A stretch of DNA of 64,000 nucleotides from Arctopsyche grandis. Taxonomy: Eukaryota > Arthropoda > Insecta > Trichoptera > Hydropsychidae. This document shows positions 1 through 43,879 of the stretch, one piece after another. The notes under the pieces were generated by a model. The model was not told the origin of the DNA, ran no database searches, and worked only from the letters and a program-made list of their open reading frames with translations. A program made the position numbers and the translations under genes. Positions within the stretch are counted from its first letter, which is position 1. The number at the start of each line of letters is the position of its first letter. The stretch covers positions 20,016,256 to 20,080,255 of the forward strand of contig NC_135357.1 in assembly GCF_051622035.1 (NCBI RefSeq), written 5' to 3'.

Positions 1-3000
1 TGAGATTTACTTCCAGAACGTGATTGAGAGCATTTATTCGAAGAATTTGACTCTTTCGAACTTCTAGATTTGCTTAAATTTTTAGAACTTCTCGATTTAC
101 CAGAACCACTAGAACTAGAAGAAGAGCTAGAACTAGAACTAGAAGAGCTAGAATTTTCTTCAGAACTATTTTCGCTTGAACCACGAGAACTAGAAGAAGA
201 GCTAGAACTAGAACTAGAAGAGCGAGAATTTTCTTCAGAACTATTTTCGCCAGAACCAATATTGTGACTATTCGAGCTACTTGAACTATTGGCTTTATTA
301 AAACTGCTTGGTTTCATACTTTTTCTCTTTCCATGACGATTTTTATCTTCTTCTGAATCATTAGATTCATCAGAAGATGAACTGTTTGAACTGCTACTGC
401 TTGAACTACTAGAAGAACTAGAATTTTCTGTAGAACCACTTGAGCTAGCGCTTGAACTACTGGCACTGCTTGCGCTGCCAGAGTCACCATCTGAATCATC
501 GGAACTACTAGAGCTGCTAGTGGAACTCGAACTACTTGAGCTACTGGAGTCACCGTTTGAATCGCCGGAGCTACTAGAGCTACTAGCGGCACTTGAGCTA
601 CTTGCGTTACCAGAGTCACCATCTGAATCATCAGAACTACTAGAGCTGCTTGCGGAACTCGAACTACTTGAGCTACCAGAGTCACCATCTGAATCACCGG
701 AACCACTAGAGCCGCTGGCGGCACTTGAGCTACTTGTGCTATTGGAGTCACCATCTGAATCACTAGAATTACTGGAGCTACTAGCGGCACTTGAACTCTT
801 TGTGCTACTGGAGTCACCGTCTGAATCACCAGAACTACTAGAGCTGCTAGTAGCACTTGAGCTACTTGTGCTACTGGAATCACCATCTGAATCATCAGAA
901 CTACTAGAGCTGCTTGCGGAACTCGAACTACTTGAGCTACCAGAGTCACCATCTGAATCACCGGAACTACTAGAGCCGCTAGCGGCACTTGAGCTACTTG
1001 TGCTACTGGAATCACCATCTGATTCATCAGAAATACTAGAGCTGCTTGCGGAACTCGAACTACTTGAGCTACCAGAGTCACCATCTGAAATACCAGAACT
1101 ACTAGAGCCGCTGGCGGCACTTGAGCTACTTGTGCTACTGGATTCACCATCTGAATCATCAGAACTACTAGAGCTGCTTGCGGAACTCGAACTACTTGAG
1201 CTACCAGAGTCACCATCTGAATCACCGGAACTACTAGAGCCGCTGGCGGCACTTGAGCTACTTGTGCTACTGGAATCACCATTTGATTCATCAGAACTAC
1301 TAGAGCTGCTTGCGGAACTCGAACTACTTGAGCTACCAGAGTCACCATCTGAAATACCAGAACTAGTAGAGCCGCTGGCGGCACTTGAGCCACTTGTGCT
1401 ACTGGAGTCACCATCTGAATCACCAGAACTACTAGAGTTGCTAGTGGCACTCGAGCTAGTTGTGCTACTGGAGTCATCTGAATCACCGGAACTACTAGAG
1501 CCGCTGGCGGCACTTGAGCTACTTGTGCTACTGGAGTCACCATCTGAATTACTGGAATTACTGGAGCTACTAGCGGCACTTGAGGTACTTGCGCTACTGG
1601 AATCACCATCTGAATCATCAGAATTACTAGAGCTGCTTGCTGAACTTGAACTACTTGAGCTACCAGAGTCACCATCTGAATCACTGTAACTACTAGAGCC
1701 GCTGGCGGCACTTGAGCTACTTGTGCTACTGGAGTCACCATCTGAATCACCGGAACCACTAGAGCCGCTGGCGGCACTTGAGCTACTTGTGCTATTGGAG
1801 TCACCATCTGAATCACTAGAATTACTGGAGCTACTAGCGGCACTTGAACTACTTGTGCTACTGGAGTCACCGTCTGAATCACCGGATTTATTAGAGCCGC
1901 TGGCGGCACTTGAGCTACTTGTGCTACTGGAATCACCATCTGAATCATCAGAACTACTAGAGCTGCTTGCGGAACTCGAACTACTTGAGCTACCAGAGTC
2001 ACCATCTGAATCACCGGAACTACTAGAGCCACTGGCGGCACTTGAGCTACTTGTGCTACTGGAATCACCATTTGATTCATCAGAACTACTAGAGCTGCTT
2101 GCGGAACTCGAATTACTTGAGCTACCAGAGTCACCATCTGAAATACCAGAACTACTAGAGCCGCTGGCGGCACTTGAGCTACTTGTGCTATTGGAGTCGC
2201 CATCTGAATCACCGGAACTACTAGTGCTGCTAGTGGCACTCGAGCTAGTTGTGCTACTGGAGTCATCTGAATCACCGGAACTACTAGAGCCGCTGGCGGT
2301 AGTCGAACTACTTGAGCTACCAGAGTCACCATCTGAAATACCGGAACTACTAGAGCCGCTGGCGGCACTTGAGCCACTTGTGCTACTGGAGTCGCCATCT
2401 GAATTACCGGAACTACTAGAGTTGCTAGTGGCACTCGAGCTAGTTGTGCTACTGGAGTCATCTGAATCACCGGAACTACTAGAGCCGCTGGCGGCACTTG
2501 AGCTACTTGTGCCACTGGAGTCGCCATCTGAATGACCGGAACTACTAGAGCTACTAGTGGCACTTGAGCTAGTTGTGCTACTGGAGTCACCATCTGAATC
2601 ACCGGAACTACTAGAGCTACTAGCGGCACTTGAGCTACTTGCACTTCCATCACTCAAATCACTCGTTGTGGTTGTACTGGTTGTACTACTGGCTATGGTG
2701 AAATCTTCGTCTGATCCCCCGGTAGTACTAGAAGAGGTTGAACTAGCAGACGAAGTTGAATCGTGTTGCGACCCTGTCTTGGTTATCGCGCTACTAGAAC
2801 TGCTTGATGTACTTGAATTCTTATGGTTTTTTTTATCATCCAAAGATTTTATTTTGCTCTTAGAACTTGAACCAGTTGAACCCATGACTTCATTGGATGT
2901 TTCTGATTTTTTTGTTTTACTAGTACTGTGTGAAGCTGTTATTTTATGATGATCTTTGTGCTTTGTTGTTTCTTTTTTTGTATCCTTATCAGAGAGGTGA

Positions 3001-3923
3001 ATTTTTGCGTGAACTTTTTTTGACCTTTCGTTTGATAAGCTCGAAGAAAACTCTTTAGAATTAATCGAATGGTGACAGCGGCAAAGTTTATGCCATCCAT
3101 GGTGTTCGTGATGTGATACTTCATCCGATTTCACGTAAAAATCATCATCCGAAACGGAACCATCATAAACATCTTCATTCAATAAATATAACAGGTGAAG
3201 AAAACGCCTTTTCCAATATGACCCTCTACGTTTTAATAAGTCTGGTGTATTTTTTAATGGATATAAAAACACAGCTCGTTCTTCCGAATCAGAATTTTCA
3301 TGTTGCAAATTATGTGCAAGTTTTTTTGACTTTGTCATTTTTCTATGATGATGTTTGTGAAGTCCTTCATTAGATCGAGATAGTGATATTTTTATATTGA
3401 TAGATTTATTTTTTGAATTGTGGGAATTCTTCTTATGGAATGTTTGATGTTTTGATAGCTTATGATGTGTATGATGAACATCATTTTGCTTATTATGCGT
3501 ATCGTGTTCATTGCTTTGTTTATTATGTGCATGGTGTTCATCATTTTGCTTATTATGCTTATGATGATCATGATTATCTTTAATATGTGCATGGTGTTCA
3601 TTGCTATGATTATTGTTTGTATGATGTTCATTACTATGTTTATTATGATGTATGTTGCCATGCTTGTGGTGCGAATTGGCAGAAGTCGCAGCACTAGATG
3701 AAGAAGAACTTAAATCTTTTCCTCCATCATTACTGACCAATGAACTACTAGAACTAGACGATGAGCTGGATCCTCCATCCGCATTGCCATTTACAGATGA
3801 TGAACTACTGGAACTAGATGACGATTCAGCCGACTCTTGAGAACTTGAGGTGCTGTATGATTCAATACTGTCATCGTTTTCTGTTTTCGACGGGTACGCT
3901 AATGGAGTGCTTCTGGCAATTTC
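1..3923 (-). CDS. Silk/sericin-like secreted Ser-rich repeat protein, giant exon 2 (3' end outside window)
   Basis: One reading frame stays open from a splice acceptor (minus-strand ...aatttaag, exon base 3923) to the window edge, about 1,307 codons, with no Met needed at its start. It begins E-I-A-R-S-T-P-L-A, in phase 0, matching exon 2 of the gene at 14340-17723. Order of parts: Ser clusters; a His/Asn-rich stretch (about 3436-3670); a conserved domain [10 protein letters not shown]...L-L-N-E-D...G-W-H-K-L-C-R-C-H (about 3065-3235); a Lys/Ser/Thr linker; then a 66-bp repeat block; then Ser runs with E-N-S-S-E-E spacers up to base 1. A role as an extracellular, probably phosphorylated silk adhesive is inferred from composition and architecture. 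No catalytic domain is visible. The leader exon was not found. Long open frames on both strands here are by-products of the repeat periodicity. Confidence 0.75.
484..2645 (-). repeat. 66-bp (22-codon) tandem repeat block in silk-like gene 1
   Basis: About 32 units of 66 bp, a few shortened to 60 bp. Each encodes an acidic core G-D-S-D-G-D-S followed by a Ser run with Ala or Thr. Two unit types tend to alternate, one containing gcggcacttgagctacttg and one gcggaactcgaactacttg on the plus strand, giving a higher-order period near 132 bp. Length changes are multiples of 3, so the frame is kept. Confidence 0.9.
3065..3235 (-). other. Conserved basic/aromatic domain of silk-like gene 1
   Basis: Encodes [20 protein letters not shown], a Ser/Asp spacer, then H-H-G-W-H-K-L-C-R-C-H. 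The same order occurs in the neighbouring gene (about 16925-17105), although the repeats around it are unrelated. I do not recognise it as a named family. Confidence 0.8.
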
Positions 3924-4299
3924 CTTAAATTATACAACAAAATTGAATATCCCTATATTGATAATGAAAATATGGTATGCCACAATAAAACCTTCCACAT
4001 TTTAAAAACACATGATAAGACTTATTTAAAGTTATATTATATTATACCTATACAATCTCAGAAAATAATCTTTCATTACCCAATTTAAAACCTAGACAGG
4101 TTTCGAAAGGACTCGAAACCCTGAATTGAACTTCAATCCAATTCAATCATTTATGAGTTTCTATACAAAAACACCGTATCATATATATAAAGACGGTAAT
4201 CTGTGTGTGTGTGTGTGGGTGTGTGTGTGTGTCCTAACTCTCGCCGAACATAATGAACGAATCGATAAAAATCGATTAATTCATTTTTCGACGAGACGA

Positions 4300-4380
4300 C
4301 TTTGTCGCGACTCGAACCGATCACCCCAAATAGCCTGAATATGGGTCTAAATGAGCTAATGGTCTCTGACATCGTGCCAA
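4300..4380 (-). repeat. tRNA-like SINE module 1 (copy A)
   Basis: On the minus strand an A-box-like TAGCTCATTTAGA (4346-4358) is followed by a perfect B box GGTTCGAGTC (4309-4318) at tRNA-like spacing. This looks like the Pol III head of a tRNA-derived SINE, not a functional tRNA: I could not fold a convincing cloverleaf. Confidence 0.55.
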
Positions 4381-4594
4381 ATCCAATTTTTCATTTCGCC
4401 TTTTTTTTTTAAACATTAATTGAAATATTCCTTCTCGCCATATAAAAATACGTAATTTTAATAATTTCATTTATCGAAGTTTTGAACCATTTTTTTTTCT
4501 TTTCATATAAAACAATTAAATATATATTTTTAATTGAAATTATTGAAATTGAAATTAATTTATATTTTAGCGATATTTGAAAAAATAAAATCAA

Positions 4595-4675
4595 TTCCAG
4601 GACGCCGACTCGAACCTACCCCCAACGCGCCCAGATCAATATACACTGACCAGTACACCATGATACGGATATAAA
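4595..4675 (-). repeat. tRNA-like SINE module 2 (copy A)
   Basis: The minus strand has A-box-like TGGTGTACTGG (4650-4660) and B box GGTTCGAGTC (4607-4616), 33 nt apart, about 290 bp upstream of module 1 in the same orientation. The sequence differs from module 1, so the repeat unit carries two different tRNA-derived heads. Confidence 0.55.
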
Positions 4676-5062
4676 GGCTGCTCTAAATAACGTTAATATT
4701 CAATAATCGTACAGAACGTATGGACAACCAATCAAAACGGAGTCATATCTTCGGTAGTTGTCGGGAGAAGTCGGGTGTCATGGATCGAGTGAATCGATTT
4801 CGATTTGCAGTATCGCTCGGGGCGATAGCTAATAATAATAGAAAAAAATAGGAAGTCTTTAAATAAATAATTGAAAACTCTCCATGGGAGTCTGCGTATT
4901 TTTAAGAATCGAAAATTATTACAAATAAAGAATTGAAAACTATCTATGAGAGTCTACGAAAATAACGGTTCCGGTTCCGGATTTTTTTTTTTAGTTTTAT
5001 AAGAGTATATAATAATTTTATACCCATGCGATGATGTTTCATCGGGCTATTCACTAGTATAT

Positions 5063-6057
5063 GTATATCCGTTGTACAATTTCACGGTTATTGGCATATT
5101 ACATCATAGCCGGATTTTAAAAAGAGTTGGAAAACCTGCGATCAATCTAGTAAAATCTTGTTTAATCTGCGATTTTATGGATCGTGGATCTTTAATGATG
5201 ATAAACAATAATGGTTGTTTAAATGTAAGAAGAAAAGTGGAATAATATTTCCGAGAAAAATAATAAATCGACAAATTACATCGAGCAACAAAAGAAAATT
5301 GGTTTTTGCAACAAAAACACGTTTTTGTACTTAGTCACAGTCTTAGTGGTTTATTCCCATAGTACTATGGCTAATTTGGTAAAACCCGAGTTTACGGACG
5401 AGGTGGACCTTCTCGACTCGCTTGCCGTTGGCAGCGGACGCGCTGCCGCTCTCATTGGCTGCTGTGTGAGAGTACTCGAGTAATGCCGTGCTGTGATAAA
5501 ACGGTGCGCAATTATTATACGTCTAATCTGTTGATCAGTTTGGGAGATAATTGAATTCAAAAACTTCAGTTCAATAAACCAAAAGGTTTCTGAGAAAAAT
5601 ATAATAAACCTCGATTCTCTAGAGTAAAAGTACTACTTCCGGTTCAGGTAAAAATATTAGAGAGTATAAAAATTCTAGAGTATAAAATTTATAATTTCTA
5701 TTATGTCAAAAAATTTCAGTCTGATTCGGTTAGCGGTTTGGGAGATAATTGAATTCGAAAACTTAAAAAAAGAGGATACTTATAAGTATAGGTACCATTT
5801 CCGGTCAGCTTAAAATTTGAAAAAAATTTACATCGTATCGATTAGCATTTCAGAAACCATCTAAGTTTCAGTTCGATAAGATTAACGGTGTTGAAAAAAT
5901 CCCCAAAATACACAGAAAAACATACATACTAACAGACACACAGATACACACACACACATTTTTTCTAGATCATTAAGAGGGCTGTACACCCGAAACCTCA
6001 ATTTTGTTGCCGTTCCTTTCTTCGATATATATATTGAGTGAATGCGACAATATATAT

Positions 6058-6097
<40 letters not shown>

Positions 6098-6098
6098 C
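5063..6098. repeat. Dispersed repeat fragments and TA microsatellite
   Basis: No gene seen. A segment near 5540-5990 (Ccggttcaggtaaaaatatt, ...cggtgttgaaaaaatcccc, ...attttttctagatcat) recurs inverted at 9100-9290 and in parts at 22300-22560 and 52820-52990. A TA microsatellite lies at about 6056-6096. A moderately GC-rich stretch at 5340-5530 could be an LTR fragment, but no terminal repeats were found. Confidence 0.5.
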
Positions 6099-7012
6099 GA
6101 CGGTAATCTGTGTGTGTCTGTGTGTGGGTGTGTGGGTGTGGGTGTGTGTGTGGGTGTGTGTGTGTGTCCTAACTCTCGCCGAACATAATGAACGAATCGA
6201 TAAAAATCGATTAATTCATTTTTCGACGAGACGACTTTGTCGCGACTCGAACCGATCACCCCAAATAGCCTGAATATGGGTCTAAATGAGCTAATCGTCT
6301 CGGACATCGTGCCAAATCCAATTTTTCATTTCGCCTTTTTTTTTTAAACATTAATTGAAATATTCCTTCTCGCCATATAAAAATACGTAATTTTAATAAT
6401 TTCATTTATCGAAGTTTTGAACCATTTTTTTTTCTTTTCATATAAAACAATTAAATATATATTTTTAATTGAAATTATTGAAATTGAAATTAATTGAAAT
6501 TAATTTATATTTTAGCGATATTTGAAAAAATAAAATCAATTCCAGGACGCCGACTCGAACCTACCCCCATCGCGCCCAGATCAATATACACTGACCAGTA
6601 CACCATGATACGGATATAAAGGCTGCTCTAAATAACGTTAATATTCAATAATCGTATAGAACGTATGGACAACCAATCAAAACGGAGTCATATCTTCGGT
6701 AGTTGTCGGAACAAGTCGGAATTAGTCGGGTGTCATGGATCGAGTGAATCGATTTCGATTTGCAGTATCGCTCGGGGCGATAGCTAATAATAATAGAAAA
6801 AAATAGGTCTTTAAATAAATAATTGAAAACTCTCTATGGGAATCTGCGTATTTTTAAGAATTGAAAATTATTACAAATAAAGAATTGAAAACTATCTATG
6901 AGAGTCTACGAAAATAACGGTTCCGGTTCCGGATTTTTTTTTTTAGTTTTATACGAGTATATAATAATTTTATACCCATGCGATGATGTTTCATCGGGCT
7001 ATTCACTAGTAT
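6099..7012. repeat. 0.9-kb dispersed repeat, copy B
   Basis: Second copy of the 4192-5062 segment, with an expanded GT-rich tract and a small internal duplication near 6483-6500. Both B boxes are intact (6244-6253 and 6552-6561, minus strand). Confidence 0.85.
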
Positions 7013-7188
7013 ATATATATTGAGTGAATGCGACAGTTGCGCTTCGATCAGATAAAACGTATTTTAAATCGACAAAATCGAGGTTTCGTATTCTCCTATT
7101 TTCTCCTCCGAAACTGGACCAATTTTTAAAAAAAATTCATCATCGGTATTAAAAAGATATTTTCTATGCAACTATGTGCGTATTTTTG

Positions 7189-7305
7189 CATACCTCCTTT
7201 ACGTTTCACATGGCTTTCGTGTTAGTGGTCATTTTTATCTCTTATCCGATCGTTTTCATACTTTGCCATATTGCTCATTTTGGTTATCAATATAAGTAAA
7301 TGGAG
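7189..7305. repeat. Dispersed repeat family R1
   Basis: Contains cctcctttacgtttcac and cttatccgatcgttttcat. Other copies lie near 9997-10115 in the same orientation and, reversed, near 24977-25040, 42200-42290 and 48562-48645. The 42200 copy directly precedes a Harbinger-type coding remnant, so R1 may be a transposon leader. Confidence 0.6.
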
Positions 7306-7362
7306 CCTCCGCCTCCGACATTCTATTTGACGTTTACGGTTGATGTTTGTTTTTATTAAATA

Positions 7363-8849
7363 CTAGCTGTATTACCCGGCTTCGCTCAGTATTTATAATA
7401 TAAACCGCTTAAGCATGACTAAGCTAATAGTAAACATTTAATTAAACAAAAAAAAAAATTTAAATTTAAAAAAAAATCAAAAAAAAAAAATTTGCCTTCT
7501 AGGGCTTCGCCCTCGGCGCCCCCCTGAGCCTTTGCCTTCTAGGGCTTCGCCCCTCCACGCCCCCATGAGCAATTGCCGTTTAGGGCTTCGCCCCCATGAT
7601 CAGTTGCATTTTAGGGCTTCGCCCCTCCGCGCCCCCATGATTAAATGCCGTCTAGGGCTTGGCCCCCCTGAGCCTTTGCCTTCTAGGGCTTCGCCCCTCC
7701 ACGCCCCCATGAGCAATTGCCGTTTAGGGCTTCGCCCCCATGATCAGTTGCATTTTAGGGCTTCGCCCCTCCGCGCCCCCATGATTTAATGCCGTCTAGG
7801 GCTTCGCCCCCTTTAGTTTATGCCTATTAGGGCTTCGCCCCTCCGCGCACCCATGATTGAATGCCGTCTAGGGCATCGCCCCCCTTAGTTAATGCCTTTT
7901 AGGGCTTCGCCCCTCCGCGTCCCCATGATTAATTGCCGTCTAGGGCTTCGCCCCCCTTAGTTAATGCCTTTTAGGGCTTCGCCCCTCCGCGCCCCCATGA
8001 TTAAATGCCGTCTAGGGCTTCGCCCCCATGATCAGTTGCCGTTTAGGGCTTCGCCTCATAAGGCTGCGCCCCTTGGGGCGATAAGGCCGCATAAGACTGC
8101 GCCTCATAAGGCCGCACCCCATAAGACTGCGCCCCATAAGGCTGCGCCCCATATGGCTGCGCCCCATAAAGCTGCGCCCCCTTTGGGGCCCCATGAGGCT
8201 GCGCCTCCTTGCGCCCCCTTCGGGGCCCCATGCGGCTGAGCTCCATAAGGCGGCGCCCCATAAGGTGGCGCCCCATAAGGCTGCGCTCCATAAGGCTGCG
8301 CCCCATAAGGCAGCGCCCCATAAGGCTGCGCCCCATAAGACTGCGCCCCATAAGGCCGCGCCCCATAAGACTGCGCCCCCTTTGGGGCCCCATGAAGCTG
8401 CGCCCCCTTGCGCCCCCTTCGGGGCCCCATGCGATTGAGCTCCATAAGGCGGCGCCCCATAAAGCGGCGCCCCATAAGGCTGCGCCCCATAAGGCAGCGC
8501 CCCATAAGGCTGCGCCCCATAAGGCTGCGCCCCAAAAGACTGCGCCCCGTAAGGCTGCGGCCGATAAGCCTGCGCCCCCCCTGCGCCCCCTTCGGGGCCC
8601 CATAAGGCCGCGGCCCCTTTGGGGCCCCACGGGGCTGCGCCCCTTGTGGCGCCCCTGGCGGGGCCCCATGAAACTACTCGCCTTGCGCCACCGCGGGGGC
8701 GAATCCATTGAATCGAAAAAAACAAATCGGCGCCTATGGATCGAAAAAAAAAAATCGAATTACGTGTTCGATGACGTCACCGATCTACGGACGACGACGA
8801 CGACGAAGGATACATACATACAAAGTCTCTTTCCAAATTATAGATTAGA
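7363..8849 (-). mobile_element. Helitron-like element carrying a GC-rich array
   Basis: Read on the minus strand, the 3' end is GAAGCCGGGTAATACAGCTAG followed by T/A host sequence, the hairpin-plus-CTAG terminus of Helitrons. The 5' end is TCTAATCTATAATTTGG, and gagactttgtatgtatg follows it. Related ends occur at 9649, 25350-25577 and 59998-61272. No helicase gene is present, so it is non-autonomous. The exact 5' base is uncertain because the expected flanking A is not clear. Confidence 0.65.
7497..8695. repeat. GC-rich minisatellite arrays inside the Helitron
   Basis: Two blocks. At 7497-8060 units contain agggcttcgcccc, whose ends are self-complementary, arranged in a higher-order period of about 144 bp (ctgagcctttgcc at 7524 and 7668). 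At about 8078-8590 a 15-bp unit ataaggctgcgcccc is repeated many times with ggggccccat breaks. Base composition is strongly GC against AT-rich flanks. Long open frames (G-A-Q-P-Y on minus, A-P-H-K-A on plus) follow from a unit length divisible by 3 and are not taken as proteins. Confidence 0.85.
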
Positions 8850-8869
8850 GACTACGCAACTATGTGCGT

Positions 8870-9290
8870 ATTTTGCTGGTGTCCAGCCCTCTTAAATCGT
8901 GATCAGTGATTGATTTGAATCAGTCAAAATCTCGAGTTCGATTTTTCGCATGCTCACAAAACTCTAGTGTTATTTTGTACATATATGTATGTACATAAAA
9001 ACTTGGAATAGCATTCCAGAAACTTTTTACTTGTTTGAAAAACTAGCGAAAGCAATACTAATAATTTTCTCTCCTACGTACGCTTGTGAGTCATTATTTT
9101 TCGAACCATTTCATTAACCGCTAACCGAATCAGACTGAAATTTTTTGACATGTAATAGAAATTCTAAATTTCATACACTCATATTTTTTAAATATTTTTA
9201 CCTCAACCAGAAGTAGTACTTTTACTCTAGAGAATAGAGGTTTCTATGTTTTTCTCAGAAACCTGTTAGTGTATTGAACTGAAATTTCCG
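8870..9290. repeat. Dispersed repeat fragments
   Basis: 8876-8895 (gctggtgtccagccctctta) recurs at about 36491-36511. 8897-8960 matches 52920-52990. 9100-9290 is an inverted match to 5560-5760. No gene. Confidence 0.5.
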
Positions 9291-9299
9291 GATGTCTTT

Positions 9300-9649
9300 T
9301 TGATTTCCGGATCTGGATGCCTTTTTCATTTCCGGATCCGGATTCTTTTTTCAGTTTCGGATCCAGATTCCTGTTTCAGTTCTGGCTCCGGATTCCTTTT
9401 TCAGTTCTGGATCCAGATTCTTTTTTATTTTCCGGTTTCAGTTCCGGATTTCTTTTTCAGTTCCGGATCAGGATTATTTTTTCAGTTCCGGTTCTCTTAT
9501 ATATAAAAAAATTCGTTGTGGGTGTGAATTCATTTATCGATTCAAATAAATTAAATTAAAAAACAAATGAATGATTTCTATTATGTAGATTAGTCATGTT
9601 TAAGCAGTTTATATTACACACACCAAGCGAAGCCGGGTAAAACCACTAG
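9300..9649 (+). mobile_element. Helitron-like 3' portion with CCGGATTC minisatellite
   Basis: Ends in AAGCGAAGCCGGGTAAAACCACTAG (split motif: AAGCGAAGCC, GGGTAAAA, CCACTAG) followed by T at 9650. Upstream is a degenerate array of roughly 25 bp (ttccggatccggattctttt) at 9300-9495. The Helitron at 59998 has the same order: a GATTCCG-like tract, then attcgttg, then the terminus. The 5' boundary was not found. Confidence 0.5.
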
Positions 9650-9823
9650 TTAATAATTAGAGGTAGGATAGTCACAGTGCTATCCATTGTTCGGCAAACC
9701 TTTAAAAATGCATTTACAACCTTTGAACAATACACGGCCCCCTCAGACTCCGGTGACTATTTATAATAATGTCAAGTAATTAAAAAAAAAAGAATTTGAT
9801 AAATTTGGAATTTTGTGTTGTGC

Positions 9824-9912
9824 AAGTTTCCCTACTTTTGCGCTCATTTTGTATTGTAAATTTGAAAATGCTCTCATAGCCGGTATTTGTGAACGTGTAT
9901 GTATGTATGTAT
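9824..9912. repeat. Dispersed repeat family R2
   Basis: Contains gcaagtttccctacttttg and catagccggtatttgtgaac. It recurs at about 11853-11938 and, reversed, at about 21765-21842. The short open frames over these copies are not credible genes. Confidence 0.6.
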
Positions 9913-10115
9913 GTTTCAGTGTCGAATTTTGTTTTTTTATTTTTCTTATATTCCTCAAATACATAGTCATGGGTTCGTCACATCTGAATTTTTACAAACC
10001 TCCTTTACGTTTCACTTTAAGACGACTTTTTTTATATCTCTTATCTCTTATCCGATCGTTTTCATACTTTGCCATATTGCTCATTTTAGTCATCAACATA
10101 AGTAAATGGATCCTC

Positions 10116-10984
10116 CGCCATTACGATGGTGCGAAAATATCGTGTAAGACGCGTTTGAAATCTGCCCGGCGAGATAGTCGTTGACGTTTATCCACCGTTT
10201 GTTAAGCCTATTCTCACTTTTCGTCATGTAAGATTTCAATTGTTTAAGCGCCTTAAACCTTAAAACTTTTTAAACTTTTTCTTTTTTCACTCTATATTTT
10301 ATAAAATATACTTTATAGGTTCTCGTTATCTCTAATATATAAATATTTATAGTTTTAAATCTCATATGTATATATAAATTTCAAATTTGGCGTATACATA
10401 GCTTCGTATAATGGCATATAACCGCTATATATCGATTTATGGCCAAATGTGTCAGATCTGACATTTCACTGCTAGACCTACATCTCTTCACTGAGCGGCC
10501 TAAGTATGTGATGATATAAAAGCGGCCCAAACCTCTTAGTAATATATTTAATTACATTAGTTTAAGCCGGAATCATAATTTTAATTGAAAACCCAATCAT
10601 TGAAAACTCTTCCCACATATTTGTACATTTGTTGTTGAAATTGCCTTTTTATTTTATTTAAAGCAATTAAATATAACAATTAATAGGAAAAATATCTGAC
10701 TATTGATTACAATACTCAGTTTGAGCGTAACAATCCTAAATTTTGAGTTAAAGACCGCAAAAGCCAAAAAACTGTAAAAATCGCGAATTTTTTTAAGCGC
10801 TCATATCTCGTAAACGATCGCCCACCAACAAAAATCAATATCATATTCGAATTCAGTGGGTCAAACTTAGTAAATATTGGCTAGTTTCCGCTCTGGTAAC
10901 TCAAAAACGTGATTTTTTGTTGCTCAGTGTAATTAATAGAAAAATCGACACAGCAAAGAAAAAAGTCACTTGGCTCAAGATTAG
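10116..10984. other. No gene seen
   Basis: AT-rich sequence between repeat copies. A plus-strand TATAAAA-like string lies near 10515, with no open frame behind it. Confidence 0.4.
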
Positions 10985-11366
10985 ATGGATGATATTCATA
11001 AAACGGCAGCCAAAAAATATGTTTTTGAGAATCCTTGGACACATCCATACAAAGAATCCTTGGACACATCCATACAATTTAGAAACATAAATATGGATGC
11101 CAAGAGAGGCAACATACCTGAGAGTCTTCCTCAACTAAGGGACAGTCTTCCTCAAAATAAAAAAAGAGAAAATAAAAGATTTGATGACTCTTTTAGATTA
11201 CATTCCTGTTATACACCATAAGTCGCAAGAGTATGACGAAAATCAAGCTACGACTTCAGCAGCTGATATCCGCCCCAGAGGTCGTCCACGAAGACAAACT
11301 GATGCACTGGTAGTGGACACAGATGAAGAAAGCATTCTCGACTATATACCTGATATAAATAATTAA
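10985..11366 (+). pseudogene. Possible broken coding fragment, unknown product
   Basis: Two overlapping frames, 78 and 61 codons. The first has charged sequence with a directly repeated segment (agaatccttggacacatcca at about 11027 and 11053). The second contains D-Y-I-P twice and a basic R-P-R-G-R-P-R-R patch that resembles an AT-hook. Joining the frames needs a shift. I do not recognise the family, and it may be transposon-derived. Confidence 0.25.
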
Positions 11367-14262
11367 ACTTGTTCCCAAAAATCTATAATTATTATGAACC
11401 ACAGGGTTTATATTTTTAGATTTTTGCGAGTCATAGTGGTATAAGTGATTTTATTTTTAAATTTGTGAGATAAATAATTATTGTATTTGATACTTTTCAT
11501 ATCAGAAGTATTTTATTATGTAGGGACTATGTTGATATTTATTTTTGTAATTTTATAATAAAAATCCTCAAAAATATACACAAATATTTAATTATCTCCC
11601 TTTCATATTTTTGTCGCTTGTACCAGTCTGGTTTTCAGGCCGTCAATTTTTGTATCAATGTGATGAAAATAAAAAAAAATCAAAATTTCAAAATGTTGTG
11701 ACAACGTCATCAAAAATGTTGTGACAATGATTCTTTCCACGCCCGAACATATTTAGCTGAAAATTTATATTTGTATTCTTTTTGTACTAACATAGAGTTG
11801 ATAAGGTTTTGGTCGGAATTCGTAAGCTGGAAGTAGAAATTTAGGCTTGTGTAAGTTTTCCTACATTTGTGTTTAATTTGTATTGAAAATGCTCATAGCC
11901 GGAATTTGTGAACGTGTATGTATGTACATACATACATACATATGTTCGATTATCGAATTTTGTTTTTTATTCTTCATATATTCCTCAAATACATAGATAA
12001 AGTCGTAGGTTGGTCACATCCCAATTTTTTATATAAAGTAAATGTAATTGGAGTTTTTTTATATTATGTGTATTGTTTCGATGAATAATTACTAGACGGT
12101 ACAAACTTTTTGTAAAAAACGAATCAATGAATCAAAGCGATGTTTTTTACTTTATTTAATTACATTTTCGGATGTGTGTGCTGAAGTAACCGTCTGGGAT
12201 TGGAAGCACTAACACATATGTATGTACATCACGATCAAATATGTTTAATTTTGCTTCAAATGGTTTTATGAAATCGAACATCCCGATTACTGCTTTAAAA
12301 TACCTTGCAATTTTTTATATTCCGATTCCTGTTTCAGTTCTGATTGCCGATTCCTGTTTCGGTTCCAATTCCCGATTTCTCTTTCAGTTCTGATTCCGAT
12401 TAATTATTATTATACGTATTGTAACTTTATGTATCAATTTGTTTCCGAAACCGCCCGTTGAAATTTTAACGGGTACAACAATAGTTCATTATATTCAAGG
12501 TTGTGAGGTCAATGACCAAGCGTTTGTTTATAATCGGGGTATGTATTATATTAGATTTCGTAAACTAAACATAACTGCTAAACCTTTCTATCCATTAAAT
12601 TGAAATACAGCTGCTTTACAGTTGTCTTCGACCTAACACATAAATTATAGCATTTTATTTAGCAAAGCTTTGAACCATTGTTTTCCATATTAAACACTTA
12701 AATATGTATATTAAATTAATTATATTTTAAAGTAATTTGTAAAAAATTACATGACCAAATATTTGCGTTTATCTCTCGACTAAAACCATCTTCACGAATG
12801 TGTTCATATAAGAATAAGTACATACATACATATGTATATATAATATGTGCATATGACCAATTATTTCGATTTCGATTCCGATTTCTATTCCGATATCCGA
12901 TTCCGATTTCAATTCTGATTCCCGAATCCAATTCTAGATTCCGATTTCAATTCCGATTCCCAATTCCTATTTCAGCTTCGATTTCAACTTCGGTTTTGAT
13001 TATTTTATTATTTTTTTTATTGAATAATTTAATATGGAATAACCAGTGGCGGATCAAGTTAATGGGGGGCCCCAGGCGCGTTTTAAATTTGACGCGTCTA
13101 CTTCAGTAAAAAAAATGCTATCATCGTTTTTTACCATGCTTTTCACTATATGGTTTTTCATTAGGATTTATAAAACCATATATTTTTATTTATTTACTAT
13201 GTACTTGAAACACTAACAATTTTTGGAATAAAAATATGTGCTTTCTATTTTTTTGGCTTACTAAAGTACTGTGGACAATGATAATAATTTGTAAATTGTA
13301 AATTTTGGTAGCAAAGGCCCATTTCATATCATTCATTGAAAACTTTGGAACTAGCGCGACTATGTTTTACTAAACTAGTCTAAAGTACAGTATCAATGCA
13401 GAATATGAATTCAATCAAATTTATCGTCTTTGATACTAGTTTTATAGTAAAAATTTATAAACCGTTTTGCATGTCACGTTCTCCAACTGATTTATCAGAA
13501 AATAATATTTATATTTCTTTTTTTGTTGAGTTTTCTTCTTCGAAAAATTCCTTTCACATAGTGAATTTATTACGTGAATAAATAATTACGTATAGTTATT
13601 GGTTATTAGCTACATTTACTAACGTACATATATGATGTTATTAAATTGTGAATATTAATACATATATCAATTATTAACTAAAAAGATAATTATGAATATA
13701 AAAAAACCTAAACTTACCGGATTGTTATACGGTTTTCAATTTAATTACATATAATTGATAGGTTGTGATCAATTATTTTTTTATTTAATTTAACTGATAA
13801 ATGGTAGCCAAAAATAATCATGTTAAATATTAAGTCTCTCATTCAATCCTTCTTATCATATGTACTTATTATGATTCTTATTATATATGATTCTTTTTAT
13901 ATGTACATATATGCACAATATTTCGTAAAAGTAGACATGGAATATAGAAATGTATAATTTCACAAAAACTCCTAACAATATTTTACAATTGTAAAATACA
14001 TACATATGCATAGACATATACGAGTATATGTATGTAGTTAAACAAACCTTAAAGGACCTATTAATTTATTTCATTATACTGAATTTTTTATATCATGAAA
14101 ATTAGATAAACTCGCTAATTTAGTTCAGGATTGGGAAAAATTAGTTGGAAATTTTGCTATTATAGTATTCGTTATAGCGTAATTCAACTGTTTGTATGCA
14201 TGTATGCATCCATTTAAAATAAGTATATGAAAATTAAAAAAATTAAAAAAATTTCATTTTCA
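11367..14262. other. Intergenic, AT-rich; simple repeats only
   Basis: Contains an R2 copy (11853-11938) and GATTCCGATTTC-type degenerate minisatellites at about 12310-12410 and 12860-12995 that resemble Helitron interiors. No convincing coding region and no signal-peptide exon for gene 1 was found on the minus strand. Confidence 0.5.
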
Positions 14263-14268
14263 TTTATT
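14263..14268 (-). terminator. Polyadenylation signal of silk-like gene 2
   Basis: AATAAA on the minus strand, about 70 bp after the stop codon (14340-14342). Confidence 0.6.
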
Positions 14269-14339
14269 TAGATCAAACTACAATCGGTAGTTTTAAATTA
14301 ACGAAAAATCTTACACAAAAAAATATTATTGGAATTTAA

Positions 14340-17300
14340 TTATTTTCCTCCCTTTTTACATCCACATTTCTTCGCAGAAGTGGCACTGCTACTGCTGGCG
14401 CTACTGGCTGAGCTACCATTTTCGTGACTTCCATTTTTACCGCTTGAACTTGCACTGCTTGAACTACTAGAACTGGAACTGTTTTCATGTGAGTTGTTTG
14501 AATTGCTTGAGCTACTACTGCTGCTACTTGCGGCGGAGCTGCTTTCTGAACTGCCGCTTCCATTTCCTCCCTTTTTTCCTCCTTTACAACCTTTTCCTCC
14601 TTTTCCTCCTTTTCCTCCTTCGTGGGAACCATGGCTTACGGAGCTTGAACTTGCGCTACTTGCACTACTGGAACTGTTTTCATGTGAGTTATTTGAATTG
14701 CTTGAGCTACTACTGCTGCTACTTGCGGCGGAGCTGCTTTCTGAACTGCCGCTTCCATTTCCTCCCTTTCTTCCTCCTTTACAACCTTTTCCTCCTTTTC
14801 CTCCTTTTCCTCCTTTTCCTCCTTCGTGGGAACCATGGCTTACGGAGCTTGAACTTGCGCTACTTGCACTACTGGAACTGTTTTCATGTGAGTTGTTTGA
14901 ATTGCTTGAGCTACTGCTGCTGCTACTTGCAGCGGAGCTGCTTTCTGAACTGCCGCTTCCATTTCCTCCCTGTCTTCCTCCTTTTCCACCTTTACCTCCC
15001 TTTCCTCCTTTTCCACCTTCGTGGGAGCCATGGTTTACGGAGCTTGAACTTGCGCTACTTGAACTACTGGAACCGTTTTCATGTGAGTTGTTTGAAGTAC
15101 TTGAGCTACTGCTGCTGCTGGAACTGCTTGCTGCAGATCCGTGTTCCTTACTTCCACTTTCATGACTTCCCCCTTTTCCTCCTTTTCCACCTTTACATCT
15201 CTTTCCTCCTTTTCCGCCTTTTCCGCCTTCGTGGGAACCGCTTCCACCTTCATGGCTTCCTTTCTTGCCTCCTTTGCCGCCTTTTCCTCCTTTTCCGCCT
15301 TCGTGGGAACCGCTTCCACCTTCATGGCTTCCTTTCTTGCCGCCTTTTCCTCCCTTTCCTCCCTTTCCTCCTTTTCCACCTTTTCCTCCTTCGTGGGAAC
15401 CGCTTTCATTTGAGCCATGGGTAACCGTGGTGGAACTTGCACTGCTAGCACTGCTACTGGAACTTCCTTCCTTTGAGCCGTTTGAAGTACTACTAGCACT
15501 GCTAGCACTACTTGCAGTGGATACTACTTCATGACTTCCCCCTTTTCCTCCTTTTCCACCTTTACATCTCTTTCCTCCTTTTCCGCCTTTTCCGCCTTCG
15601 TGGGAACCGCTTCCACCTTCATGGCTTCCCTTCTTGCCTCCTTTGCCGCCTTTTCCTCCTTTTCCGCCTTCGTGGGAACCGCTTCCACCTTCATGGCTTC
15701 CCTTCTTGCCTCCTTTGCCGCCTTTTCCTCCCTTTCCTCCCTTTCCTCCCTTTCCTCCTTTTCCCCCTATTCCTCCTTCGTGGGAACCGCTTTCATTTGA
15801 GCCATGGGTAACCGTGGTGGAACTTGCACTGCTAGCACTGCTACTGGAACTTCCTTCCTTTGAGCCGTTTGAAGTACTACTAGCACTGCTAGCACTACTT
15901 GCAGTGGATACTACTTCATGACTTCCTTTTTTATTTTTTTTACCTCCTTTTCTATTGCCACGCATTTTCTTGATTTTTTTCCCTCCTTTTTTACCGTGCT
16001 TACCCTTTTCTCCGGATTCGTGGGATTCACTGCTTGAGCTTTCATCGGAATCCTTTATAATGATAGTTGTAGTTGTTGCAGCACCACTTGAACTGGCCGC
16101 GCCTGGGCCACCTGGACCCCCTGGAGAACCTGCATTAGATGCAGAAGCAGCTCCTGTTTCAGTAATAATCATGATTTCTTCGCTACTATCATCATCGTCT
16201 TTTTTCCCTTTTCCGTTTTTTGGGTGTTTTTTATGTTTCTTTCCGCCTTTTTTACCGTGCTTACCCTTTTCTCCGGATTCGTGGGATTCGCTGCTTGAGC
16301 TTTCATCGGAATCCTTTATAATGATAGTTGTAGTTGTTGCAGCACCACTTGAACTAGCCGCGCCTGGGCCACCTGGACCCCCTGGACCACCTGGAGAACC
16401 TGCACTAGATGCAGAAGCAGCTCCTGTTTCAGTAATAATTATGATTTCTTCGCTACTATCATCATCGTCTTTTTTCCCTTTTCCATTTTTTGGGTGTTTT
16501 TTATGTTTCTTTCCACCTTTTTTACCGTGCTTACCCTTTTCTCCGGATTCATGGGATTCGCTGCTTGAGCTTTCATCGGAATCCTTTATAATGATAGTTG
16601 TAGTTGTTCCAGCACCACTTGAACTAGCCGCGCCTGGGCCACCTGGACCACCTGGAGAACCTGCACTAGATGCAGAAGCAGCTCCTGTTTCAGTAATAAT
16701 TATGATTTCCTCGCTACTACTATCATCGCCTTTTTTCCCTTTTTTTGGTTGTTTCTTACGGGGTTTTTTGTTTTTTTTGTGTTCATCGGATTCACTGCTC
16801 GAACTATTTTTTGGATGATGCTTTTTTGGATGATACTTTTTTGGATGATGCTTTCCTGGAGTGCCCTCAATAGAAATGCTTATGGAAATTGAGATTGACT
16901 CCGAGGAACTGTCACTTGAAGTCGAATGTTTGTGTCTGTGACAACGACATGCTTTTTGCCATCCATAGTTTCCATGTCGACATCTTTTATGTCCAGGAAC
17001 CCATTCACGAGATGGTCCATCACTGCTGGAATTGCTGTCACTATCTTCATTCAACAGATACAAAAGCCTTAGGAATCGCCTCTTCCAATAAGATCCTCTG
17101 TTATCATTGATTGGTTTCATTTTCTTTGGCTTCCATCGACCCAAGCCAGTTTCGTCGCTATCACTCTCACTCAAACTGATATCGATTTTAATATGATTTG
17201 GACCCTGTCTGCCTGGTTTACCTGGCCTCTTGTGTTTTTCTATCGATATTGAAATTGATTCCGAAAAAGATTCAGAATAGGAGTGTGAAATTGACTCTGA

Positions 17301-17932
17301 CAATGACTCTGAAATGTGTTTAGATTCTGTTGGTTTCTTTGGGGGATTTTTCTTTGGGGGATATTTCTTTGGGGGATCTTTCTTTGGAGGACTTTTCTTT
17401 GGTGGATCTTTCTTTGGGGGATCTTTCTTTGGGGGATCTTTCTTTGGAGGATCTTTCTTTGGTGGTTCAGGCTTATTAGGTTTTCCTTTGCCTCCGCACT
17501 TATGACCACAGGGTCCTGGATGTTGTTTTGAATTATGCCCTGAGTGTCCACCACAGGGATGAGGCTTACCGCCTCCACCTGTATGAGCACATGCTCCACC
17601 GGCGTGAGCAGCTGCTCCACAACCACCACCGCCTGCTTTGGCGCACGCGTGAGCACCACCACCACCCGGGTGCCCTTTGCCACCGCCACCGCCACACGCC
17701 AACGGGTTGGCTCGTACGATCGCCTTAAAATATACAAAGTGATCTTGTCAATATTTATACTATAAAAATCTACATATGTATTATATTACTATTGCTAAAA
17801 TTAAATACAGCAATCGAAAGCAAGTAATTCCTAAAGTAGACGAGATACCGCGTGACAGAACTCTCGAAGTGTCTAAGGGAATCTCGAAAGCATGTGTACA
17901 TACATATGTACATGTATAAATACGAATATATA

Positions 17933-18031
<99 letters not shown>

Positions 18032-19845
18032 AGAACCGTACGAGCCTGATTGAAAGTGAGACGATGGGCGGTTTTCGAAAGCAATTTGGTAACTAGGCTT
18101 TATTACATTTATTAAATAATAATAAAGCTTTCACGCTATACAGCTATTGCATAGCATTGAACATTTCGCTGAAACCGTTGTATAAATATCAAACCGAATA
18201 AAAGTATTTTCCACGACGATTGAACAAATACATTGTTCAAAGTCATCACGACGGTTGATTGATTAAGCACTTCAAATATGTTTGGGTACGATCATAAATA
18301 CAGATGTCCATTTCGTAAAATACGTGGCAGATATACATATGTATGTACATATGTATGTACATATGTATGTATTTATATTTAGTAAAAGTGTCACACTCAT
18401 AAAGATTAATCATACCAAAGTGATTTTCCCATCCTGTCAAATCAAATCTAACCTATTTTGATTTTGTAATCGTACAGCAAATGCCAATCAGTCCATTTAT
18501 TGCATCAAAATTTAAACTTCAAATTTAACAAATTATATTGAATTTGAGATAATTAAATTTAAATTCTATTAAATATCCCTGATTTTTCACAATACAATTT
18601 TTTACATAAATACATACAAACATCGAATGACTTTCTATATTTTATTTTTCCCAAATCCACTATTATGTGATAATCAATTTATTAATATTGACTAATTTTT
18701 TTTTTATTCAGCCCATTGACACATATGTACACCATGTTATGTGCTAATCTTCAAAAATATATGAATATACGATTTTATCTCACATAATATCATAACTTCG
18801 TGCATTGTACATACATATACATATGTACATAGAATAATACAAAAATTAGTGATTTTGTATGCACATATCCTATCCGCAATCCTTATTTCATGGAATAAAA
18901 TCGGATTTTTTGAATATTAGTTCAACTACACCGTCCTGAAGATGAAGACGGATGTTTTACACGTATTTGAGGCATAATATTTATGTAGGTATCACATAAA
19001 TCGGTATTGATTAAAATGAGTAGGTTAAAAAGATTTTATCGGTTTATTTTATATTATAAATATGTGCGTTAAAGTTAATAAATTAATGGACATAATATTA
19101 TTTATTTATACCGATGAATTTATAAAATTATTGTAATGACTTTAAAGTTAAATTCCAGTATTATTATATAGTATATAATCTGGAGGTTCTATAATGAAGT
19201 TTTCAAAAAATAATAATGATAAGCGTTTAAAAAAGCATTTATTAATTTAATTAAAACTTTTTCATGTTGTGTTTTTATTTTTATTTTTACCAAAATTAAT
19301 TGTCTTTATCATCGAAAATTTTCTTTGTCGTTAATTTAATATTCAGCTTTTCATAAAAACAAGTAAAGATATAAGTAAAATTAGTTGTTGGATATCTTTT
19401 AAGCGTCTATAGGGTGAATAATGAATATTCTATAAACATTTGGACTCGTACATATGTATATGTATATTCTTGTATTATTATGCATTACTATTGATTTATT
19501 TAAATATGTGCAGATGTAGAATTTGTATAAAATCTTTCAGTTAAAATCTATTCTTTAAAATATCTTTCTTTAAATCATTTAAATATTTACATATTTTCCG
19601 TTTATATTCTAAGTCCAAGATAGGATGAAATTCAGTTTCAGTAGAAACTAATTATATTACTTAATTGCGCTCTAATAGTGAAAAATGCTCGATTCGTGTT
19701 AAAAAGCTCGTCTTTTGTTAGAATGAATTACATGCTTCGTGATTATAAAACTGATTTTATTAAAGTGTTTAATAACGATAGCAAATATTTAACTTACAAC
19801 AAATGCGACTAATAAGAAAAGCGTGAAAACTTTCCAGTTCGCCAT
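14340..19845 (-). CDS. Silk/sericin-like secreted repeat protein, two exons, complete (1,143 codons)
   Basis: Coding exons 19798-19845 and 17723-14340. Exon 1 encodes [16 protein letters not shown] and ends at a GTAAGT donor. Exon 2 starts A-I-V-R-A-N-P-L-A in phase 0, so a signal peptide is completed across the 2.07-kb intron, with cleavage expected after A-I-V-R-A. Mature parts in order: Gly/His/Cys-rich head; P-P-K-K-D repeats; Ser-X runs ending S-I-S-I-E; short collagen-like G-P-P text; the conserved [10 protein letters not shown]...C-R-C-H domain; S-I-S-I-S-I-S-I-E and K-K-Y-H-P runs; three modules of about 95 residues pairing E-E-I-I-I-I and T-T-T-T-I-I-I with G-G-P-G-G-P and Lys blocks; G-G-K-G-G-K and S-H-E-G-G repeats with Ser runs; tail [10 protein letters not shown]. 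An adhesive silk role is inferred, with no database match available. Confidence 0.85.
14343..15935 (-). repeat. Internal repeats of silk-like gene 2, C-terminal half
   Basis: Tandem modules: three to four copies of a Ser/Asn/His-Glu plus G-G-K module (about 200 bp each, 14400-15030), then two near-identical copies of a roughly 370-bp module (about 15165-15530 and 15535-15935) encoding V-S-T-A-S-S-A-S-S and S-H-E-G-G-K runs. Recent unequal exchange is likely. Confidence 0.8.
15960..16790 (-). repeat. Three Ile/Gly-Pro/Lys modules of silk-like gene 2
   Basis: Three repeats of about 280 bp. Each encodes an acidic Ser patch, [10 protein letters not shown], a G-S-P-G-G-P-G-G-P turn, [12 protein letters not shown], then a Lys/Gly/His block. 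They differ mainly in the number of G-G-P units. Confidence 0.85.
16925..17105 (-). other. Conserved basic/aromatic domain of silk-like gene 2
   Basis: Encodes [19 protein letters not shown], a spacer with further Cys and His, then [11 protein letters not shown]. It matches gene 1 at 3065-3235. Confidence 0.8.
17335..17470 (-). repeat. 15-bp repeat encoding P-P-K-K-D
   Basis: About ten units in the N-terminal part of silk-like gene 2, with D replaced by S, Y or N in some units. It gives a dense Lys/Pro block next to the Ser/Glu-rich block. Confidence 0.85.
17936..18029. repeat. TA dinucleotide microsatellite
   Basis: Roughly 90 bp of uninterrupted (TA)n inside the intron of silk-like gene 2. 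Confidence 0.95.
18060..19790. other. Remainder of the silk-like gene 2 intron
   Basis: AT-rich, with acatatgtatgtac simple repeats near 18335-18372. No coding signal. Confidence 0.6.
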
Positions 19846-19945: not shown

Positions 19946-19980
19946 GACTGAATATTGCCATCTAACCATATATATTTATA
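19946..19980 (-). promoter_or_regulatory. TATA box plus initiator of silk-like gene 2
   Basis: On the minus strand TATAAATA (19973-19980) is followed by TCAGTC (19946-19951), an insect-type initiator. The A of the initiator, at 19949, is 31 nt from the first T of the TATA box. That gives a 5' leader of about 104 nt before the ATG at 19845. Confidence 0.75.
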
Positions 19981-34058: not shown

Positions 34059-35072
34059 ATGAATCAAAACTGGATATATGACAAAAAATCAACAAACTCG
34101 CTGAAACTTTTTTTAAATGTAGTTGAAAAATTTAATTCTGCAAATCAAACCGACCTCGAAAATCTTTGGCATACAGTTTTCCCAAGAAAATCTTTAAAGA
34201 GAAAAAAAGAAACATTACACTCAGAAAGTCAAATCGAAATCAACAGTAGTGATCAAACGATACCAAAATCTGATGATAGTGGTGAGCCTTGTTCCAAAAG
34301 ACTATGTCAAAACGAACCTCAAGTTGAGATATTGAATCCTAATACTTTATTAGAAAGTAATCATTTTGAAGACTTCATCGAGAAACTTTTGCAAAACCTC
34401 AAAATGGAAAATACAACTCCAACTAAATTAAGCAAAATCAAATCTGCGATAAATTATAAAAATGTTGTCGAAACTGTAAATCCAGAACAATTTTTTAATA
34501 TCTGTCTATATTTTTGTAATCAAAGTGATGGTGCGATTCGACATTTCTTGAACAATTTTTGTCAATCATTGTTATATCCATATTTAAAAAAAGGAGTACC
34601 ATCTCGATATACAGATAAAGCCTTCCTTATATGCTTATCGAAATTTCCAGCCGAAATTTGTAAACACGTGTTACTTCCATTGATGTTCAGTTTTAACCCA
34701 TTGCCTTCGCTTTTTCACTTGGCGATTACAAATTTAAATCAAATACAAAAAATTACATTATTGAAAGATTTCTTAGAATCACATCATATTGTTAATTTAT
34801 GGATTTTCCCCATAATTATTTCACTTTTGAAATCAATTCCTGAAAAAAACACCACTATTAATTCTTATATAATCAACTTTTTAAAAGTAAATTCTAAAAA
34901 ATATGCTAATAATTCTGATTTTGGAAAACTTCTTTATTCTTGTATTTTAACTTTTCAAAATTTATCCTTAGACTCTGATGGTAAAATCGTTTTGAAAATT
35001 ATTTCTGAGCATCAAACACCTTTTAAGGATGCATGTTTAAAAGCCTTAAATTTAAAAAAATCACATTTATAA
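34059..35072 (+). CDS. FANCE: FANCE-like protein (Fanconi anaemia core complex), 337 aa, single exon
   Basis: Known role of the family: FANCE is the core-complex subunit that bridges to FANCD2 in interstrand-crosslink repair in the nucleus. Residues 1-110 are charged and Ser-rich with basic patches (R-K-S-L-K-R-K-K-E) that could act in nuclear import. About 150-337 is an all-helical region resembling the FANCE C-terminal repeat domain, including an end of the form T-x-F-K-x-x-C-L-K-A-L. The ATG at 34059 is preceded by an in-frame TAA, so this start is firm for an intronless gene. It is shorter than the vertebrate protein, which has a longer N-terminus. Similarity is from memory of the family. 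A generic helical-repeat protein is the alternative. Confidence 0.6.
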   Translation: MNQNWIYDKKSTNSLKLFLNVVEKFNSANQTDLENLWHTVFPRKSLKRKKETLHSESQIEINSSDQTIPKSDDSGEPCSKRLCQNEPQVEILNPNTLLESNHFEDFIEKLLQNLKMENTTPTKLSKIKSAINYKNVVETVNPEQFFNICLYFCNQSDGAIRHFLNNFCQSLLYPYLKKGVPSRYTDKAFLICLSKFPAEICKHVLLPLMFSFNPLPSLFHLAITNLNQIQKITLLKDFLESHHIVNLWIFPIIISLLKSIPEKNTTINSYIINFLKVNSKKYANNSDFGKLLYSCILTFQNLSLDSDGKIVLKIISEHQTPFKDACLKALNLKKSHL

Positions 35073-42870: not shown

Positions 42871-42984
42871 CAGTGCCGGTTTTAGGGGGGGGCTGGGTCG
42901 GGCGGTGTCCGAGGGTGCCGAGTATGTTCGGGTGCCACTGCATGCACCTGTTTTAAAATTTAAAATTAGGGCGCCAAAGACCCT
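42871..42984. mobile_element. Left part of a second hAT-type MITE, split by the LTR element
   Basis: Starts CAGTGCCGGTTTTAG and follows the MITE at 41486 up to ...gcgccaaagaccct. Its sequence resumes at 46430 (ccctaaaaaaatttagatt) and fades near 46490. Confidence 0.75.
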
Positions 42985-43742: not shown

Positions 43743-43743
43743 T

Positions 43744-43767
43744 TGGTACTACCCCGACGTGATTTGA
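43744..43767 (+). other. Primer-binding site candidate
   Basis: tggtactaccccgacgtgat begins two bases after the LTR and continues tttgaac. It is complementary to a tRNA 3' end and T-arm apart from two or three bases. The related tail at 46340 reads tggtgacccc. Confidence 0.6.
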
Positions 43768-43879
43768 ACTACGCAGCCTTCATAGCAGTCAACAGCGCAG
43801 TCAACACGGCAGCCCACAGTGCAGCCTCCACAACAACCAACAGCCGCCACGACAGCAGTCAACAGCGCAGTCAACATAG

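Follow-up and report, generated by a model that had tools for sequence, protein, structure and literature searches.

A 64,000-nucleotide stretch of genomic DNA (hereafter the window) carries two genes on the same (minus) strand, each with one long, repetitive second exon and with a head segment of about 55 residues in common. We infer that this pair encodes tandem paralogous secreted silk proteins of a caddisfly larva, which would most likely serve as coat or adhesive proteins of the silk gland (we put the probability of this reading at about 0.62). That the same head is attached to differently charged tails suggests that the two proteins work together in a silk coat or an adhesive that functions under water.

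Anatomy of the gene pair and its shared head

The features of the two genes, in window coordinates, are these:

19975..19980, minus strand: TATAAA, putative promoter of gene 2 (from the sequence), 130-135 bases 5' of the start codon
19798..19845, minus strand: gene 2 exon 1, coding part (48 bases, 16 residues), with most of the signal peptide; donor GTAAGT, phase 0
17724..19797, minus strand: gene 2 intron 1, 2074 bp, splice sites predicted from sequence alone
14340..17723, minus strand: gene 2 exon 2, beginning AIVRANPLA in phase 0 and closed by a stop after 1127 codons
17334..17462, minus strand: gene 2 KKDPP repeats, 15-bp period, 8.6 copies (repeat scan)
17241..17312, minus strand: gene 2 (SX)12 run, 24 residues (motif-run count)
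16938..17099, minus strand: shared head domain in gene 2, a 19-residue core and, further on, GWQKACRCH; residues 209-262 of exon 2
16869..16904, minus strand: gene 2 (SX)6 run, 12 residues, then EGTPG (motif-run count)
15985..16743, minus strand: gene 2 270-bp repeat, 2.9 copies (repeat scan)
14472..15778, minus strand: gene 2 Gly-Lys/Ser repeats, including poly-Ser (repeat scan)
14355..14366, minus strand: gene 2 C-terminal CGCK, residues 1120-1123 of exon 2; the protein ends CGCKKGGK
14263..14268, minus strand: AATAAA 3' of the gene 2 stop, about 70 bases on (from the sequence)
1..3923 (in frame 3923-3), minus strand: gene 1 exon 2, incomplete, 1307 codons, open to the window edge
3458..3647, minus strand: gene 1 His-rich repeats ahead of the shared domain (repeat scan)
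3072..3227, minus strand: shared head domain in gene 1, a 19-residue core and, further on, GWHKLCRCH; residues 233-284 of exon 2
481..2641, minus strand: gene 1 66-bp (22-residue) repeat, Ser with DSDGDS, 32.9 copies (repeat scan)

Gene 2 is seemingly complete, from the TATA box through exon 1, intron, exon 2 and stop to AATAAA, and encodes 1143 residues. Its signal peptide probably terminates in AIVRA ahead of NPLA, as judged by eye from the usual (-3,-1) rule, which leaves a mature protein of ∼109 kDa with a computed isoelectric point (pI) of 9.83. Exon 2 consists of 23.8% Ser, 21.2% Gly and 13.9% Lys, and its net charge lies between +2 and +12 in each of 12 consecutive blocks of 100 residues (the last block has 27); the tail is a polyampholyte with 127 basic versus 72 acidic residues. 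No second occurrence of the gene 2 promoter and first exon was found elsewhere in the genome searches. Exon 2 of gene 1 begins EIARSTPLA at 3923, also in phase 0, and its C-terminal end falls into 5000 bases left of the window that read N. The visible part (∼126 kDa) contains 47.3% Ser and 9.6% Asp and has a computed pI of 4.7; both pI values are for chains without phosphorylation. From residue 401 to residue 1200, each of the eight blocks of 100 residues carries a net negative charge of 11 to 16. Thus, the two tails are opposed in charge.

The core of the shared head is identical between the genes at 18 of 19 residues and is followed by a dissimilar spacer and then by GWxKxCRCH. Aligned to each other, the two domain copies scored 152, compared to a mean of 26.4 (standard deviation 4.8, maximum 54) for 2000 shuffles. 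At the codon level 10 of the 19 core positions differ and nine of these differences are silent; the non-synonymous divergence (dN, NG86) was 0.058, and the synonymous divergence (dS) was returned as -1, which we took as saturation. Nine silent changes out of 10 indicate that the DNA diverged for long enough to accumulate silent-site changes while the protein was held. The residues F, L, I, V, M, W and Y make up 47% of the gene 2 core, compared to 6.4% of gene 2 exon 2 and 5.5% of the visible exon 2 of gene 1, and the core is, by its predicted sequence, probably one sticky patch within otherwise very hydrophilic chains. Upstream of it lie Gly/Cys- and KKDPP-rich stretches in gene 2 and His-rich stretches in gene 1, whose head (counted through the domain end) contains 41 His. 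The head of gene 2 also carries (SX)12, (SX)4 and (SX)6 runs, the (SX)12 and (SX)4 being separated by a stretch of at least ten residues; neither the longest run nor the total was reached in any of 5000 shuffles of the first 300 residues.

An earlier note made from the DNA letters had proposed a tandem pair with a common segment, and the strand and the alignment score bear this out. It had also described both second exons as starting x-I-x-R-x-x-P-L-A in phase 0, which holds for AIVRANPLA and EIARSTPLA after similar acceptors. By eye, this pattern looks like the end of the signal peptide and is separate from the domain. Similarly, the domain had been called N-terminal: it does lie within the head, at some distance from the very N-terminus of exon 2. 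The word 'giant' was generous for a mature gene 2 protein of the size given above, with gene 1 incomplete. What stands is a fixed segment ahead of unrelated repeats in proteins that have the marks of secreted, silk-type tandem paralogs.

In the whole 476-Mb genome the domain occurs in two copies only, the two scored candidates both having E ≤0.001; a relaxed genome search (E ≤10) yielded no further copy and one extra row at chance level (E 6.4). A profile scan of the six frames of the window likewise returned only the two known copies above chance. The domain had no Pfam match above the cut-off (for the gene 2 piece, SR-25 came closest, with E 3.4), neither exon 2 matched a Pfam family at E ≤0.001, gene 2 had none at E ≤1, and a sequence search of the PDB with the gene 2 head piece gave no match at E ≤1. 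One protein search, limited to lengths like that of the complete exon 2, used residues 180-290 of gene 2 and gave 1153 candidates, none at E ≤1. In another, a 206-residue piece was used, as contigs built from short reads were expected to end at the repeats, and no candidate shared three words with it. These negatives are weakened by the word filter and the length limits. A match of the domain to a known non-silk family, which by the earlier note would have refuted its reading, thus did not turn up in Pfam, the PDB or the protein searches. Neither the head domain nor its pairing with tails of opposite charge was found in the open-licence PubMed Central (PMC) literature, in proteins, in Pfam or in the PDB. 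The head domain thus appears to be undescribed, the cadhesins (Caz) and pseudofibroins (Pfib) of caddisflies having been compared by description only.

Comparison with known silk proteins

The family could not be named in the earlier note, which had recognized its silk-like character. This character stands, and the kind of gene can be named more closely: it is that of the two-exon caddisfly silk genes, and the closest named groups are the cadhesins and pseudofibroins (PMC11092239, PMC9432349; here and below, published systems are described from excerpts of the cited papers). A layout of two exons, the first encoding an incomplete signal peptide and the second being long, is reported for most Caz genes, all Pfib genes and the gene for H-fibroin (FibH) (PMC11092239, PMC9432349, PMC11241164), and gene 2 is predicted to have the same layout. 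Members of Caz and Pfib have been detected in spun silk and are fibre coat or glue in the view of the authors (PMC11092239, PMC9432349). It is this layout, together with the presence of Caz and Pfib in spun silk, that leads us to assign the pair to the coat or adhesive proteins of silk.

Caz genes of Limnephilus lunatus mostly open with a short exon that holds some of the signal peptide and continue in a long, often repetitive exon 2; they are clustered, and Ser or Thr can exceed 40% (PMC11092239), as compared with 47.3% Ser in gene 1 and 23.8% in gene 2. Two exons are predicted for gene 2, and of gene 1 exon 2 only was found. Ser-bearing repeats are present as arrays with 66-bp, 195-bp and 270-bp units, and clustering is seen in the tandem pair and in a further Ser-rich gene model, which has two exons and the same orientation but is without the domain. 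Unlike the pair, Caz are not credited with a shared head domain in the excerpts of PMC11092239, a comparison by description only. Caz are also reported there as being without a conserved Cys-coding 3' end; gene 2 ends in CGCKKGGK and the end of gene 1 lies outside the visible sequence. According to the same excerpts, cadhesins and moth sericins share no pattern conserved well enough to prove that they are homologous (PMC11092239).

Pfib of Plectrocnemia conspersa resemble the pair in having two exons, of which the first encodes an incomplete signal peptide, in carrying some repeats and in forming two adjacent paralogs, but they contain 32-44% Ala with Ser-Ala motifs (PMC9432349), whereas Ala makes up 5.6% and 5.8% in the pair, so that the composition does not agree. 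Lepidopteran sericin 1 is likewise duplicated (Ser1A/Ser1B) and has CXCX near its C-terminus (PMC9745057), where gene 2 has CGCK, the C-terminus of gene 1 again being outside the visible sequence; in contrast to the pair, no (SX)n or head domain is described in the excerpts of PMC9745057. Caddisfly FibH is encoded by a two-exon gene and carries (SX)n runs, some of them around a PG turn (PMC4929942, PMC11241164). Gene 2 has such runs, confined to its head. In H-fibroin, where n is mostly 4 or 5, the (SX)n runs bear phosphate groups that Ca2+ bridges, and two runs flank the PG turn (PMC4929942); the (SX)12-spacer-(SX)4 and the (SX)6-EGTPG of gene 2 look like this arrangement, a resemblance rather than a test of homology. 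FibH of Trichoptera is far longer (5344-9027 residues, PMC11241164) than the 1143 residues of gene 2, gene 1 being incomplete, and exon 1 of insect FibH has 39-45 bp (PMC11241164) compared to 48 coding bases in gene 2. FibH is located between prospero and a DLST-type gene, and in a basal moth cadhesin-like genes occur in pairs (PMC11906653). The excerpts of PMC13045387 contain no mention of cadhesins or pseudofibroins.

Neighbourhood and lineage

The neighbouring genes used here are these:

38634-40073, minus strand: MOSPD2 orthologue, whose long coding exon encodes CRAL-TRIO and MSP domains (Pfam, protein search)
exon 2 at L005:3307-4875 and exon 1 at about L005:6154-6207, minus strand: third gene model, with two exons, for a secreted Ser-rich, silk-like protein; outside the window, on its left

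The best protein matches of MOSPD2 were 92% identical, followed by 68, 53 and 52%, and this search doubles as a control for insect proteins in the database. In a tree of 49 rows (the window and 48 proteins picked by hand from 120 listed), the window and five further rows were sister to a group of 11 rows, among them each of the five named Lepidoptera in the tree, with support of 100/99. An L-fibroin exon was found in the genome (49.5 bits compared to a cut-off of 27) and in none of 14 control genomes. The placement as sister to Lepidoptera, taken with L-fibroin, makes a caddisfly almost certain as the source, although no row of the tree carries a caddisfly name; Trichoptera is one of the two orders that the earlier note had singled out for a search.

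The third gene has its exon 1 (MDAVARSICVLLCLVIVS, donor GTAAGT) 33.8 kb past the left edge of the window, ∼38 kb from the start of gene 1 exon 2. Its exon 2 encodes 523 residues, begins AVPVAND, is Ser-rich and has a Tyr-rich end; one partial relative (55% over 124 residues) lies on contig C1. It was found in a survey of the open frames in the flanks of the window (90 kb on the left and 150 kb on the right, with 5 kb reading N), a survey that shorter or multi-exon genes escape. On the right, a Ser/Pro/Gly-rich frame of 1174 residues (window coordinates 95468-98989) looks cuticle-like by eye and was set aside. Within the window, an open frame at 34059-35069 on the plus strand (337 residues from Met) had no Pfam match above the cut-off and is perhaps FANCE-like by eye, and searches for RNA genes gave neither Rfam nor transfer RNA hits.

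The gap between the two silk-like genes contains two copies of a 0.87-kb element (4202-5068 and 6137-7020), which are 96% identical. With the first copy as seed, at least 40 near-full-length matches of 96-100% identity, the seed included, were found genome-wide (of at least 41 matches, with 40 of 1734 candidates scored), and the element is therefore probably a young transposable element. Satellite-like arrays are also present in the gap. At 7492-8655, long GC-rich tandem arrays with periods of, e.g. 15, 72 and 199 bp (GGCTGCGCCCCATAA) stand within AT-rich surroundings. Elsewhere in the window, two 0.83-kb segments (42978-43807 and 45509-46333, 98% identical) flank an 85-bp tandem array (7.4 copies, 44609-45240), and a 0.3-kb inverted repeat at 61342-61648 is 91% identical to its own reverse complement.

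Alternative explanations and a possible mode of assembly

Several results weigh against the assignment to silk proteins. No named silk relative of the domain emerged from the protein searches, though the database holds insect and, judging by the tree, caddisfly-like proteins. The third gene was ruled out as a member of the family, as it is without the head domain. There is no (SX)n run in the head of gene 1 and a single (SX)4 in its visible tail. As the tail of gene 2 is a polyampholyte, phosphorylation of Ser could cancel its positive charge. Finally, a search between the genes for the first exon of gene 1, which covered GT donors of all three phases, GC donors of phase 0 and likeness to gene 2 exon 1, brought up nothing convincing. 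Candidate frames at 5959 (inside a simple repeat), 8819 and 13336 were judged unconvincing. The best weak frame with a fair donor is that at 13336 (MNDMKWAFATKIYNLQIIIIVHSTL, donor GTAAGC), and it is no better than frames elsewhere in the window, where frames of like quality come with eight plus-strand and 79 minus-strand donor sites (the latter mostly inside the gene 1 repeats); the region 5' of it is unlike that of gene 2 (score 23 compared to a mean of 20 and a maximum of 33 for 500 shuffles).

The missing first exon could mean that there is one gene, in which the promoter and first exon of gene 2 are spliced alternatively to either exon 2, so that a single signal peptide serves both tails. 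Consistent with this, the two acceptors are both in phase 0 and similar (TTTGTATATTTTAAG and TTGTATAATTTAAG), and gene 2 exon 1 joined to EIARSTPLA gives a plausible signal peptide by eye. However, with AATAAA ∼70 bases past the gene 2 stop, the transcript must run 10 kb beyond this signal, and gene 1 possibly has a weak first exon of its own, e.g. at 13336; we consider a single gene unlikely. The missing exon, together with the two copies of the highly repeated 0.87-kb element in the gap, would also fit a dead or dying duplicate that lost its promoter and first exon to transposon insertion. Gene 1 nevertheless runs through 1307 codons without a stop before it reaches the window edge, and it differs from gene 2 at one residue of the head core, nine codon changes being silent, and we think decay very unlikely. 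Alternatively, the pair could encode secreted proteins rich in Ser and His that do not belong to silk but, for example, to the cuticle, the egg shell or a salivary secretion, as composition and a signal peptide alone cannot name a gland and the head domain had no known relative in the searches made. Against such an origin, which we hold to be improbable, stand the (SX)n runs and the two-exon layout, which match reported caddisfly silk genes, and the Pfam result, with no family for either exon 2 at E ≤0.001 and none for gene 2 at E ≤1.

How would silk proteins of this kind work together? Tandem duplication would have retained the head and changed the tails, leaving each gene with a short exon for a partial signal peptide (seen in gene 2 only) and a long exon in which a conserved head precedes a rapidly evolving repetitive tail. 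One tail would then have become acidic and Ser-rich (gene 1), the other basic and Gly-Lys-rich with Ser blocks (gene 2). The head, a short hydrophobic segment between basic and acidic residues with a CRCH motif, may self-associate, and its contacts (hydrophobic, disulfide or metal) may bring both chains together. After expression in the silk gland, the tails could condense by charge and then, once Ser is phosphorylated, by Ca2+ bridges like those of the caddisfly fibroin (SX)n.

The contrast between pI 4.7 and pI 9.83 makes complex coacervation a reasonable next step, as in the cement of the sandcastle worm, where a polyacidic phosphoserine protein and polybasic proteins form a complex coacervate (PMC11277488); the worm belongs to another phylum, and the likeness is a functional analogy only. 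A caddisfly underwater adhesive made of two proteins of common descent, one acidic and the other basic, with the same head coupling opposite tails into one coacervate, and possibly with both tails issued from one promoter by a choice between two long last exons, is a tentative and rather doubtful extension of the silk reading.

The proteins that coat and glue caddisfly silk evolve too fast for their kinship to be visible in most cases. The head of about 55 residues, if found in other species, would offer a handle by which such a family could be traced across caddisflies, and an acidic and a basic protein with one head would make the assembly of wet silk adhesives directly testable.

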